Source: a virus. From it: a DNA stretch of 37,658 nt. The stretch lies in IMG/VR virus record IMGVR_UViG_3300042560_001435, positions 1 through 37,658 of that record. The stretch is one strand, 5' to 3'. The notes below the pieces were generated by a model. That model had not been told where the DNA came from. It searched no databases and was given only the letters and a program-made list of their open reading frames with translations. Every line of letters starts with the position of its first letter. The first letter of the stretch is position 1. Below, piece after piece: positions 7,902-37,658 of this stretch. A program made the position numbers and the translations under genes.

Positions 7902-8507
7902 ATGATAAAACTAAAAGATCTTCTAAAAGAAGAAAGTTGGGAGAAAGAATTATACTCAGATTGGGAAAAAAGGTTCACAGTTGGTGTGGGCAATCGTAAT
8001 TTCACATTAGGTGTAAAAAAACTTCTAACACGATTCTTTTATACGAATCCAAAATTCACAACTCAACATTCTCCAGATTCACCTAAAAACTATAAAAGAA
8101 CTAAAAACAATAAATTCACGTTCAATGGTTATGAATATAGTAAAGACGAAGTGTTGACTTTACTAAAAAAATATCAAGAACAAGGTCTTACTGATGTTGA
8201 TAAGGACGATGAAGAATCTATCGTGTATTATTTTGATAAATGGCCCAAAAAAGGAAGTGAGATTGAATTGACAAAAAACGATAATACTGCTCACTTTGTC
8301 AATGTGGATAATACAGGTAAACAAAAAATACTTCAAAAATGGAAAAATGCGAAGCCTGTTGATTATCAAGGATTGCTCATTTGGGAATGGGAAGAGAATG
8401 GTAAAACTAGAGCAATCACACATAGTTTAGACGATACATGGTTTTTGATGACTAAAGTCAATGGCGAAGATAAATTCAAGATAGATGATGTTCTATATGA
8501 ACTTTAA
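7902..8507 (+). CDS. unknown protein with capsid-targeting-like N-terminus
   Basis: A 201-residue lysine-rich protein that I do not recognise. The ATG at 7902 has TGGAG six bases upstream; the TTG codon just before it is not needed. It begins MIKLKDLLKEES, the same pattern as proteins at 34679 and 35845. In T4-like phages, short amphipathic N-terminal peptides of this kind, ending at L/I-x-E, target proteins into the prohead and are removed by the gp21-type protease. By that analogy this could be an internal head protein. The remainder (for example YYFDKWPKKGSEIEL and LLIWEWEENGKTRAITH) shows no catalytic motif, membrane segment or cysteines. Its own promoter and an upstream terminator set it apart from the replication genes. 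Confidence 0.6.
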   Translation: MIKLKDLLKEESWEKELYSDWEKRFTVGVGNRNFTLGVKKLLTRFFYTNPKFTTQHSPDSPKNYKRTKNNKFTFNGYEYSKDEVLTLLKKYQEQGLTDVDKDDEESIVYYFDKWPKKGSEIELTKNDNTAHFVNVDNTGKQKILQKWKNAKPVDYQGLLIWEWEENGKTRAITHSLDDTWFLMTKVNGEDKFKIDDVLYEL

Positions 8508-34076: not shown

Positions 34077-34099
34077 AAACACTATTATTGGAGATTAGA

Positions 34100-34456
34100 A
34101 TGCATGAAGTAGCAAGTAAACTTATAGAAGTTCACAATCAATTGAAGTTCTTTCATTGGCAAACAACTTCATATGCAAGACACAAGGCTTATGGTAAAAC
34201 ATATGATGCACTAACTGACCTTATTGACAACTTTGTAGAAGTAATGATGGGCAAGTATGGTCGTGTACCAGCACTCCCCATGAAGGTTTATAATCGTAAT
34301 GAAAAAGATTGTATGACATTCATTGATGAGACAATTGCATATCTTCTACTTCTTTCAAATGCGCTCAATCCAACAACTGACTCAGATCTACTCAACATCC
34401 GTGATGAGATGGTCGCTGAATTCAACAAACTGAAGTACCTACTTACATTGAAGTAA
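34100..34456 (+). CDS. small phage protein, DUF5856/ferritin-like
   Basis: A 118-residue helical protein. The ATG at 34100 has TTGGAG six bases upstream. LIEVHNQLKFFHWQTTSYARHKAYG (11-35), then YDALTDLIDNFVEVMMGKYGR resembles the Dps-like helix pair with its FHW motif, and matches a family of small phage proteins I recall as DUF5856. Ferroxidase residues are not clearly complete, so iron storage should not be assumed. It begins the segment of presumably virion-related genes after the sugar island. Confidence 0.65.
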   Translation: MHEVASKLIEVHNQLKFFHWQTTSYARHKAYGKTYDALTDLIDNFVEVMMGKYGRVPALPMKVYNRNEKDCMTFIDETIAYLLLLSNALNPTTDSDLLNIRDEMVAEFNKLKYLLTLK

Positions 34457-34678: not shown

Positions 34679-35800
34679 GTGATACGATTACGTGATCTTA
34701 TAAAAGAATTCTCCGTAAGCAAGGGAGATTTTACCAGATTCAGAGGTTCTTGGATTCTTTCTCTTGGGATGAAAGACGGCAACACAAATAAGATGGTAAA
34801 GTCACATGAAGATATTGTATCTAAACTGTGGGCAGAAGACCGTAAAAATGGTGGTTACAAGAAACGAGAAATAGATGATTCGTCCGTAAAGAAACTGATT
34901 GATGGGTATGTAAAATCGGTTCTGTCAGGTGGAACAAACCACAGTACCGTTGGAGGCGATATTCATATGACATTCTATTTCAGAGATAATGATGTAACAA
35001 TTGGATTGTTTGACTTTGGTGTATTATATGATAACCCATACAAATACTTCTCACCGAAAGATTTTAGATTCAGAAGCGATGATAGTTTTATATCATCCCA
35101 CTACGAAAGTGAAAGAAACATAATGGATGAAGTAGTAGTTGGATGGATACGTGGTCGTGGTGGAAAAGGACAATTCGGAATAAACCCAAAGATAGTTTTT
35201 AGTTTAGACAATGTTCTAAAAATTGATGGAATCTTTGTCAATCAAAAAAGACGTGGCGAAGGATATGGTAAATTACTATATGATACCATAATGAAGTATT
35301 CGGATGCATTGGTTAGTGATAGTCAATTATATGAAGGTTCGTTTGGACTTTGGACAAAATACATACATGATAAATCAAAGTTTTTTGGTGTCATGTATAG
35401 AACGGAGAGATACAGTTTTGTTTTTCCAATTCCACCGGGGGCTAAACTTACACCATCCTTTTTTGGAAATAGTGGCGATTTAGAAACTCCAGCTGGATTT
35501 GTATCTATTAGTAAGAAGGTACCGTCATCAGTCACTTCATTCTCTAAAAAGATAATGTCACTTGGTGTTGGGGATTTAGATGTATTTGATGCATCAAATT
35601 CAAAGTTTACTAAAGCCGTGGAATCTGTATTAGACGATTCCATATCAATAGATGAAGTAATGGAAGAATTTGGGTCATCAGAATTAGGTTTGAAATTCGT
35701 TTATAAGAATGTAAAAACTCCAAAAGTATTATTCTGTTTTGCAGATGCACTTGTATTAGTAAAAGAAGTCGGTGATGGTTTGGATTGGGAATTACTTTAG
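34679..35800 (+). CDS. GNAT-like acetyltransferase with capsid-targeting-like N-terminus (copy 1)
   Basis: A 373-residue protein starting at GTG 34679, with GGGGA upstream. It begins MIRLRDLIKEFS, the shared targeting-like peptide. The central part has IDGIFVNQKRRGEGYGKLLYDTIM; RGEGYG at 192-197 fits the acetyl-CoA motif R-x-x-G-x-G/A of GNAT enzymes. DALVSDSQLYEGSFGLWTKYI follows, as in phage GNATs where a conserved Ser-Leu-Trp lies near the acceptor site. The C-terminal 110 residues are unassigned. The whole gene is paralogous to the next. An ejected protein that acetylates a host target is an attractive inference, by analogy with T4 internal proteins, but is unproven. Confidence 0.65.
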   Translation: MIRLRDLIKEFSVSKGDFTRFRGSWILSLGMKDGNTNKMVKSHEDIVSKLWAEDRKNGGYKKREIDDSSVKKLIDGYVKSVLSGGTNHSTVGGDIHMTFYFRDNDVTIGLFDFGVLYDNPYKYFSPKDFRFRSDDSFISSHYESERNIMDEVVVGWIRGRGGKGQFGINPKIVFSLDNVLKIDGIFVNQKRRGEGYGKLLYDTIMKYSDALVSDSQLYEGSFGLWTKYIHDKSKFFGVMYRTERYSFVFPIPPGAKLTPSFFGNSGDLETPAGFVSISKKVPSSVTSFSKKIMSLGVGDLDVFDASNSKFTKAVESVLDDSISIDEVMEEFGSSELGLKFVYKNVKTPKVLFCFADALVLVKEVGDGLDWELL

Positions 35801-35844: not shown

Positions 35845-36870
35845 GTGATAAAATTGAGTGAGATTATAAAAGAGATTGAGGTAAATCAAGGTTCCTACAA
35901 TTTTGATTGGGATAGTTGCTTTGATTTTATTCCGAATAGTGTATTTAATTTTTACTTGGATAATATAAATGATATTCAAAATAAAATAGCCGACGGTTAT
36001 TTTAAAACACCAGAACAACTAAAATCTCGTGTTGATAAATTTGTAAAGTCTATGGCTTCTAATTCAAACGGATCTAAAAAAATCAGTGATAATCAGTTTT
36101 TATTAAAATATGAATATGGTCAAAAGATAGTATTCATCATTTATGATTTTGGAAAGTTTTATGATAAAAAATTTTCAAGAGTTTCTGAACCAGAAAAGGA
36201 TATATTGGTTGGTTGGATTTATGGAACAGGTGGAACATCTGAGTTCGGTATTCATCCGAAAAAAATCTTTCAACTAAATAGGGTTTTTCGTATTCACGGT
36301 AGTTATGTTGATAAAAAACAACGGGGTAAAGGATACGGTAAAATACTTTATAATGCAATCATAAATGATGTAGACGCACTTGTTAGTGATAAAATTTTAT
36401 ATACAGGTTCATTTGGATTGTGGACAAACTACATATTCAATAAATCAAAATTCTTTGGTATAGTTTATGAATTAGAAAACACAAGTATAGTATTACCTGT
36501 AAAAAAAGGGGAAAAGATAGACAAGAAATCTGTTTCTACTTTCGGTCAAGATGGTTTTGTAGCTATAACACGCAACATACCTCCGTTTCTACAGAAAATG
36601 TCCAATGCATTGAAGGAAATAAATTTCAATTCACTGGATGTAATAGATTCATCTAATACAAAGTTTTCAACTAAAATACAGGATTTATTTGATGAATCAA
36701 CTTCTATGGATGATTTATTTTCAGAAGATGGTTCATATACCAATCCACTTACAGATTACTTACCGTATAAATGGAATGACCCTATATCTCCAAAGGCATT
36801 GATGTATTTCAAGGATGCACTTGTATTGGTAAAAGAAGTCGGTGATAGTTTGGATTGGCAACTACTTTAG
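35845..36870 (+). CDS. GNAT-like acetyltransferase with capsid-targeting-like N-terminus (copy 2)
   Basis: A 341-residue paralogue of the preceding gene. The GTG at 35845 is chosen because GGGGA lies five bases upstream and because the resulting N-terminus MIKLSEIIKEIEV aligns with copy 1; an in-frame start at 35785 would overlap the previous gene and spoil this. RIHGSYVDKKQRGKGYGKIL has RGKGYG at 160-165 as acetyl-CoA motif. DALVSDKILYTGSFGLWTNYI and the C-terminal DALVLVKEVGDSLDWQLL are nearly identical to copy 1. The N-terminal 110 residues diverge most, which may reflect a different target. Confidence 0.65.
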   Translation: MIKLSEIIKEIEVNQGSYNFDWDSCFDFIPNSVFNFYLDNINDIQNKIADGYFKTPEQLKSRVDKFVKSMASNSNGSKKISDNQFLLKYEYGQKIVFIIYDFGKFYDKKFSRVSEPEKDILVGWIYGTGGTSEFGIHPKKIFQLNRVFRIHGSYVDKKQRGKGYGKILYNAIINDVDALVSDKILYTGSFGLWTNYIFNKSKFFGIVYELENTSIVLPVKKGEKIDKKSVSTFGQDGFVAITRNIPPFLQKMSNALKEINFNSLDVIDSSNTKFSTKIQDLFDESTSMDDLFSEDGSYTNPLTDYLPYKWNDPISPKALMYFKDALVLVKEVGDSLDWQLL

Positions 36871-36889
36871 GAGAAAATCTTGATAAAAC
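36814..36889 (+). repeat. direct repeat at gene 3' end (copy 2)
   Basis: Second copy of 35744-35819, four mismatches in 76 bases. Here the TTGATAAAA continues into a long open gene and not into the FPYKRG scar. Confidence 0.9.
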
Positions 36890-37658
36890 TATCTTCACTA
36901 ATAGAGAAACCAAACAAATTGGACGAATGTACAATTGTTGGTGCTAAGATAGAAGATGATATTATTCTGGCAAAGAACAGAGACAGGAATTACTATCCTA
37001 AAATAAAAGTAATCCATGAAATCATCAACGATGTTGAAGTGGCATATATGTTAGATTTAGATACTGATTACTCTGAAGGTATGAATGAGTTTGGTATCGG
37101 TATAATAAATGCAACACTTCAGGCAGAAGCAGATGAGAAGGCAAAGTCCAAAAAGAAATCCAATGTTCAATCAAAAGACGGATTCAAAGTCCGTCATGCA
37201 CTTGGACTTGATAATGTTGGAGATATAATTCGTTCAGTAGTTACTTTCAATGGTTATTCAACCGGCGATAATTCTTTGAGTGGAGAACCTACTGCACTCA
37301 ATGGACATACTATCGTTGGAACACCGAGAAACATTTTCTTTATTGAGAATATTTCCAATAGACCACCAATTGTAAAGAAAATGAAAAAGAACAAATTGAT
37401 TGTTAGAACCAATCATGGTATGGTCTATACAAAAGCCGGTTATCAACAAGGTATTGATAGAAAATCATCTGTGATGAGACAGTTGATTGCTAAAAAACTT
37501 ATGACTAAAGTTCATAGTCCTGAAGATGTACTACCGACTCTAAATAAAAAGTATGAAGTTCCTGGTTGGGCAAATCCACGTAGGCACAATTACAAGTTAT
37601 GGACATCTACTCAGATAATGATGAATCTTTCTAAAAAAGAATTGAATCTTGTCATAGA
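36880..37658 (+). CDS. Ntn-hydrolase-like protein, acyltransferase/C45-like (5' part)
   Basis: Open from TTG 36880 to the window edge (259 codons). AGGAG lies six bases before the TTG; the first in-frame ATG is far inside. After a short leader LIKLSSLIEKPNKLDE, Cys17 begins CTIVGAKIEDDIILAKNRDR, the order of nucleophile Cys and KNRD motif seen in C45/C59 N-terminal-nucleophile hydrolases. NEFGIGIINA (69-78) and RTNHG (176-180) are the further conserved motifs. Such enzymes cleave or transfer acyl groups from amides after removal of residues before the cysteine. The leader resembles the targeting-like peptides of upstream genes, and LDE precedes the cysteine exactly. The C-terminus is missing. 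Confidence 0.6.
   Translation, partial: MIKLSSLIEKPNKLDECTIVGAKIEDDIILAKNRDRNYYPKIKVIHEIINDVEVAYMLDLDTDYSEGMNEFGIGIINATLQAEADEKAKSKKKSNVQSKDGFKVRHALGLDNVGDIIRSVVTFNGYSTGDNSLSGEPTALNGHTIVGTPRNIFFIENISNRPPIVKKMKKNKLIVRTNHGMVYTKAGYQQGIDRKSSVMRQLIAKKLMTKVHSPEDVLPTLNKKYEVPGWANPRRHNYKLWTSTQIMMNLSKKELNLVI

Follow-up and report, generated by a model that had tools for sequence, protein, structure and literature searches.

In phage T4 the prohead protease gp21 is described as cleaving after L/I-X-E (PMC9026906) and as taking 65 residues off gp23 (PMC9026906, PMC9958956). The internal proteins IPI-III and Alt carry a short N-terminal tag, the capsid-targeting sequence (CTS), which ends in L/I-x-E and is found on otherwise unrelated cargo; it is given as 10 residues, of which mainly residues 4 and 7 serve targeting and residues 8 and 10 serve processing (PMC9026906). 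Alt is a packaged enzyme, but in T4 the cut frees the cargo from the core and is not known to create a catalytic residue. In phages SPN3US and phiKZ, an S77-like protease likewise removes N-terminal propeptides from many packaged ejection proteins, with SPN3US gp245 and phiKZ gp175 cutting S/A-x-E, a different P3 preference; activation of an enzyme by exposure of its nucleophile is not reported in the parts of these sources drawn on here (PMC10052503, PMC9026906).

The second group of relevant systems comprises the Ntn hydrolases. NAAA, acid ceramidase and IAT (C45-C89-type) have the Ntn fold with a Cys at the start of the domain and motifs of the NxD, RTNHG and SxxxR type; they process themselves, the pro-segment remaining as a second chain. 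Bile-salt hydrolase and penicillin V acylase (C59), as well as TANGO2, are single chains with the nucleophile at residue 1 or 2, and they are activated when the methionine or a few residues are lost, with no tie to capsid assembly. While gp21-cut tagged cargo (the T4 internal proteins and Alt, the giant-phage ejection proteins) and self-activating Ntn amidases are thus already known, no paper was found in the open-licence literature on a prohead-protease cut creating the catalytic N-terminus of an enzyme or activating a phage Ntn hydrolase.

The window, a stretch of viral DNA of 37,658 nucleotides, ends in an Ntn-hydrolase gene (36880-37656, + strand; Table 1) which has a TTG start and reads MIKLSSLIEKPNKLDE followed by CTIVGAKIEDDIILAKNRDRNY... 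up to the window end. The ORF runs past this end, with approximately 30 C-terminal residues missing relative to the homolog at locus L002. As the stop codon of the upstream gene (TAG, 36868-36870) lies in the same frame, the leader can be at most 16 residues; an inner TTG at 36919, if used as an alternative start, would leave a leader of three. The codon positions read from the sequence agree with the sequence-only reading in that the leader ends K-L-D-E with Cys17 as the next residue. The leader has a second LxE upstream (L7-I8-E9), which is followed by Lys, and KLDE/C is the sole [LI]xE plus small-residue site in the entire window protein.

Table 1. Features of the Ntn-hydrolase gene and of tagged genes in the window.
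Feature	Position	Strand	Basis or remark
Protein with tag MIKLKDLLKE/E	7902..8507	+	
GNAT-like protein, GTG start, tag MIRLRDLIKE/F	34679..35800	+	
Tandem GNAT-like paralogue, likely GTG start at 35845, VIKLSEIIKE/I	35845..36870	+	listed ORF starts at TTG 35785
Shine-Dalgarno-like GGAG	36870..36873	+	sequence; 6 bases before TTG; overlaps G of in-frame upstream TAG
16-residue leader, MIKL tag type	36880..36927	+	contains earlier candidate site L7-I8-E9
Predicted prohead-protease site L14-D15-E16 / C17	36919..36930	+	comparative motif and T4 gp21 motif L/I-X-E; codons L14 36919-36921, D15 36922-36924, E16 36925-36927
Mature Ntn-hydrolase domain, NAAA/IAT/choloylglycine-hydrolase-like	36928..37656	+	profile matches and model; cut by window end
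Cys17, nucleophile	36928..36930	+	invariant in 44 aligned relatives; structural superposition
K32-N33-R34-D35-R36, invariant	36973..36987	+	alignment of relatives
R176-T-N-H-G180; R, N, H and G invariant	37405..37419	+	alignment of relatives
S196 to R200, both invariant	37465..37479	+	alignment of relatives

That the protein has an Ntn fold with residue 17 as nucleophile had been presumed from the sequence, with structure prediction proposed as a check. An AlphaFold2 model built on 43 aligned relatives (pLDDT 80.6, pTM 0.82) bears this out, with the first strand starting at residue 18 and leader residues 1-15 disordered (pLDDT < 50). The alpha-beta-beta-alpha Ntn fold was recovered by the model, by Foldseek and by VIA-align. 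The top Foldseek match in the PDB is the IAT precursor (E-value 1.5e-8), followed by bile-salt hydrolases, penicillin V acylase and acid ceramidase. With VIA-align the best scores are those of CV2077 (Z 20.7; 2.8 A over 207 residues) and NAAA (Z 20.4; 3.6 A over 198 residues), while acid ceramidase (ASAH1) has a Z of 19.3, and residue 17 superposes on IAT C103, NAAA C126, ASAH1 C143, BSH Cys2, PVA Cys1 and TANGO2 Cys2. Residues invariant in the 44 aligned relatives include E16, C17, the block K32 to R36, N77, R176, N178, H179, G180, S196 and R200. The K32-R36 block sits where the post-nucleophile [GA]xNxD signature of the superfamily falls.

Sequence profiles are less decisive for the window protein. 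It scores 20.2 bits (E-value 5e-4) against Pfam AAT (PF03417), below the gathering cut-off of 23.2, although 25 of the 44 relatives match this family at E < 0.1 (best 2e-7). NCBIfam NF040521 (C45 autoproteolytic acyltransferase/hydrolase) matches 41 of the 44; however, the window scores 31.5 bits against a curated cut-off of 85, no record lies above that cut-off, and the window match starts at profile position 85, leaving the pro-segment (positions 1-84) unmatched. Assignment to the NF040521 subfamily was discarded on both counts. A PDB sequence-profile search with the window protein gave nothing relevant, the fold search being the informative one, and PHROGs gave no significant match to it. 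The Ntn assignment holds because of the model, the fold-search matches and the invariant residues.

A lone LxE at a given place has a chance of approximately 0.9% with phage composition and so carries little weight; what matters is its conservation. This was examined in 120 distinct proteins, whose residues preceding the Cys were read from the retrieved loci. L/I-x-E stands immediately before the predicted cut in the window (L-D-E/C) and in 112 of the 120 relatives, with MxE (FMNE, L039) and VxE (PVTE, L179) found once each, and in the remaining six the Cys directly follows Met. Thus, [LIMV]xE abuts the Cys in 114 relatives, Met in six, and no other form occurs. P1 is Glu in all leader-bearing forms, P3 is Leu or Ile except in L039 and L179, and P2 is free with a preference for Asn. 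At any other leader offset, [LI]xE is found in just 0 to 11 of approximately 110 relatives. A chance LxE was accordingly ruled out, given how consistently the motif keeps to a single offset among the 120 relatives, and on this comparison the junction before the Cys is under selection.

The leaders themselves are unrelated in sequence, ranging from about 5 to 479 residues. They include MIKL tags, MKNLIR..ILxE types, short leaders of 7-8 residues (MAKLLNE, MKKIINE), a domain of 63 residues (L002) and, in L028 and L197, fused segments 334 and 479 residues long with matches to DUF5872 and DUF5661; each of these leaders ends LxE/C. In the long ORFs the Ntn domain is C-terminal (L197:1115-3664 with DUF5661; L028:5071-6897 with DUF5872). 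Between the Chryseobacterium phages MA9V-1 and MA9V-2 the leaders MTSANNNEFLNE and MTSADNNAFINE have several differences, including P3 Leu to Ile, with the motif kept in both; their junctions read EFLNE/C and AFINE/C.

The six leaderless Met-Cys forms (L148, L168, L182, L183, L191 and L192), some of which have a stop a few codons upstream, have the Cys directly after Met. In the tree they are nested within the LxE forms, requiring three changes of which at least two are forced. As far as alignment and tree go, the domain evidently has no need of a leader, and what stays constant, as the constraint, is an exposed N-terminal Cys. Such forms, which resemble the C59 enzymes and TANGO2 in their layout, would represent a switch away from protease-dependent activation that arose at least twice in the leader-bearing clade. 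Met-Cys as a sign of a lost prohead protease was ruled out, for the record of L191 has an S77 protease together with a leaderless Ntn gene; for the same reason packaging does not appear to be essential to the Ntn family.

As regards the protease, 27 records with the Ntn gene were inspected, and the 16 with gp23 (PF07068) are the same 16 that have an S77 prohead protease (PF03420). Neither is seen in the remaining 11, which may be fragments. In a further record set S77 was found in 11 of 18. Head genes are absent from the window fragment. Both gp23 and S77 are, however, present in G001, which is closely related to the window, with a DNA polymerase 80% and an Ntn protein 76% identical. In one record (L113, the record of L026) the gp23 match has two in-frame TAA codons inside it, although the ORF list also gives one of 538 residues that is uninterrupted.

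The ends of the capsid propeptides, read before the ...VQPMN or VQAMN core and aligned to the T4 site by eye, resemble the Ntn junction. These are QLIDE/S (G001), QLLKE/G, QLLDE/A, QLISE/A, FLINE/A, YLINE/A, HLINE/A, LLNE/S, RLNE/A, EFINE/A (MA9V) and, once, QLVTE/V. In MA9V-1 the S77 protease heads a scaffold-like ORF of 1347 residues (L231:26501-30544; MA9V-1 126501-130544), apparently a protease-scaffold fusion, and this ORF has 16 [LI]NE sites against approximately 0.9 expected from composition, the next residue being S, A, G or C at most of them. MA9V-2 has a comparably long open frame. The stricter pattern F[IL]NE[ACGS] occurs seven times in the 113 ORFs of MA9V-1 (30,346 residues; approximately 0.2 expected); four head-module proteins account for six of these sites, and the remaining one is the junction before the Ntn Cys. 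For this phage the published paper presents SDS-PAGE only and no proteomics (PMC10537231).

Unrelated ORFs near the Ntn gene often have a start of the same type as its leader, which in length matches the 10-residue T4 CTS. These read MIKLxx[LI][LI]xE, or MKxLIRxILKEE and MNLQESIRRILREE variants, and unrelated ORFs with MI[KRST]L-like starts form 30 groups, with Glu at position 10 in 17 representatives. The tagged proteins include a gamma-glutamylcyclotransferase, a 5′-nucleotidase/HAD-like enzyme and HAD-like proteins. In L089 and L097 the 10-residue tag MIKL[LI]DLLKE, of the generic T4-CTS-like form MIKLxxLLKE that recurs on many unrelated genes, is joined straight to the Ntn Cys; neighbouring starts in L097 are MIKLTELILE, MIKLIDLLKE/C (Ntn), MIKLKQVLTE, MIKLLDILKE/S (GGCT family) and MIKLVELFNE/E. 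The features of the CTS, namely a length of about 10 residues, hydrophobic residues at 4, 7 and 8, Glu at 10 and unrelated cargo, are thus present in L089, L097 and many tagged ORFs. In the window, the Ntn tag has Lys at residue 10, Lys also comes after its first LxE (LIE9), and the predicted cut is at 16, so that the T4-CTS geometry is exact in relatives only.

Within the window the tag is found on the ORF at 7902-8507, on both GNAT-like paralogues and on the Ntn protein, while the genes for DNA replication and sugar biosynthesis are without it. Across the loci, [LI]xE falls in the first 20 residues of 37% of 956 other ORFs against approximately 20% (approximately 1.8-fold enriched), and in MA9V-1 enrichment near N-termini is weak and not clear; being modest in the one and weak in the other, this is supporting evidence only. 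Runs of adjoining unrelated genes sharing an [LI]xE-ending tag were seen at L097:5097-8408, L041/L066:8885-12762 and L045:9289-12624. Such runs may represent, across the genomes of uncultured phages, the set of proteins that are packaged into heads. It should also be mentioned that the two GNAT-like paralogues directly upstream of the Ntn gene both have a copy of GGAGAAAATCTTGATAAAA at the stop (35800 and 36870).

The suggestion made from the window alone, that a gp21-type protease cuts after L-x-E in front of the Cys, gains support from these comparisons. The junction motif survives complete replacement of the leader, S77 is present wherever there is a head module, and the same motif ends the capsid propeptides. 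The MA9V-1 protease-scaffold is full of it, and in L089 and L097 a T4-CTS-like tag is fused at the Cys. Because the leader nearly always ends in the signal of the phage's own capsid protease, particle assembly probably switches the enzyme on. We consider it likely that the gene encodes an Ntn amidase precursor, packaged by its tag and armed by an S77 cut that exposes the Cys.

The following sequence of events is proposed. The amidase (NAAA/acid-ceramidase/IAT-like) would be made as an inactive precursor, brought into the prohead core by its short N-terminal tag, which is probably a capsid-targeting sequence like that of the T4 internal proteins. During maturation the S77 (gp21-type) prohead protease would cut after L-x-E and strip the tag, making the Cys the N-terminal residue and the enzyme competent, so that it would stay silent in the producing cell until the particle matures. 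The enzyme would remain in the head and probably be ejected with the DNA into the next host, where it would hydrolyse an N-acyl compound belonging to that host. By its fold the substrate is most likely an N-acyl amide, such as a fatty-acid amide, a ceramide-like lipid or an N-acyl amino acid. With regard to a partner gene that might hint at the substrate, none is indicated, as no gene recurs in more than 12 of the approximately 53 groups of the neighbourhood survey.

Compared with T4, the arrangement shares a short tag ending in L/I-x-E, an S77 protease and one tag on unrelated cargo, but the cut would in this case yield the N-terminal nucleophile. Compared with NAAA, acid ceramidase and IAT, the phage leader differs from a pro-segment in being disposable and of any origin, and in ending in a predicted prohead-protease site. 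A wider statement concerns a clade of T4-related phages that is widespread and, for the most part, uncultured. In it the capsid-maturation protease would activate a packaged Ntn zymogen, one of a large set of tagged injected enzymes, whose activity would be confined to completed particles and, afterwards, the next host; the balance tips slightly in favour of this statement.

If the prohead protease does cut this site, the enzyme could still act in the prohead or virion, for instance on a head protein or in maturation, and not as an injected effector. Some relatives lie close to lysis or tail genes, which would fit such a role. However, the tagged and cut cargo of T4 (the internal proteins and Alt) is described as ejected (PMC9026906), and, to judge from the leaderless Met-Cys forms, the enzyme may also be able to function from the cytoplasm. 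Action within the head is thus regarded as unlikely, though it retains some weight.

The main rival to activation by the prohead protease is autoproteolysis, whereby the precursor would cut itself before the Cys, with L-x-E serving its own active site and no phage protease taking part. The nearest solved enzymes, NAAA, acid ceramidase and IAT, do activate themselves (the structure titles include precursor and 'self-activated' forms), so the Glu-Cys bond could be an autocatalytic junction, and the profile matched by nearly all members is named for autoproteolysis. Nevertheless, the window falls well short of the cut-off of that profile, and its match starts only at position 85, so that a pro-segment kept as the other chain is absent; the leader is also disordered in the model. 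The residue before the Cys in the autoprocessing relatives is Gly in IAT, Ile in acid ceramidase and Phe in NAAA, unlike the Glu found here. Conservation of P3 and P1 with P2 free is instead the pattern described for gp21 (PMC9026906), and equals that of the capsid sites in the same phages. Autoproteolysis also leaves unexplained why the Cys in L089 and L097 should directly follow a generic tag, and we judge it distinctly improbable. That L-x-E is a fixed, uncut N-terminal flank, with the leader staying on a protein that is not an active Ntn enzyme, is very hard to credit given the invariance of the catalytic-type residues C17, N33, D35, N178 and R200, the unrelated leaders of widely differing length that would not hold the motif at one offset without reason, and the leaderless forms, which expose the Cys by ordinary methionine removal.

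If activation by the prohead protease is correct, prohead proteolysis would serve as a timed enzyme switch besides being a structural step, with an amidase silent in the producer and armed in the particle. Since the nucleophile must be N-terminal, one N-terminal peptide would suffice as a direct test. The shared tag would further allow candidate injected cargo genes of uncultured phages to be read from sequence alone.

Relatives of the Ntn gene are frequent in viral contigs, with 455 stretches found in one scan and 158 in another. A back-translated pattern scan of bacterial and archaeal genome contigs gave none, and no close relatives were found in plasmids. In the phage collection searched, MA9V-1 and MA9V-2 are the only isolates with the gene, which is annotated as MA9V1_182 (WIC41446.1) in the former and MA9V2_239 in the latter. 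The viral structure library holds a 944-residue protein containing the Ntn domain (A0A1B1IVH7, 39% identity).

Elsewhere in the window, genes for sugar biosynthesis, nucleotide sugars and glycosyltransferases form a large cluster at 12000-34050, including GDP-mannose dehydratase-like, NeuB-like, thiamine-enzyme-like and dehydroquinate-synthase-like proteins, these names coming from reading the translations only. Near the Ntn gene, at 34088-34456, there is a DUF5856 protein (PHROG starvation-inducible regulator), whose family recurs beside Ntn in eight groups of loci; the proteins at L089:1660-2019 and L097:3300-3659 resemble it by eye.
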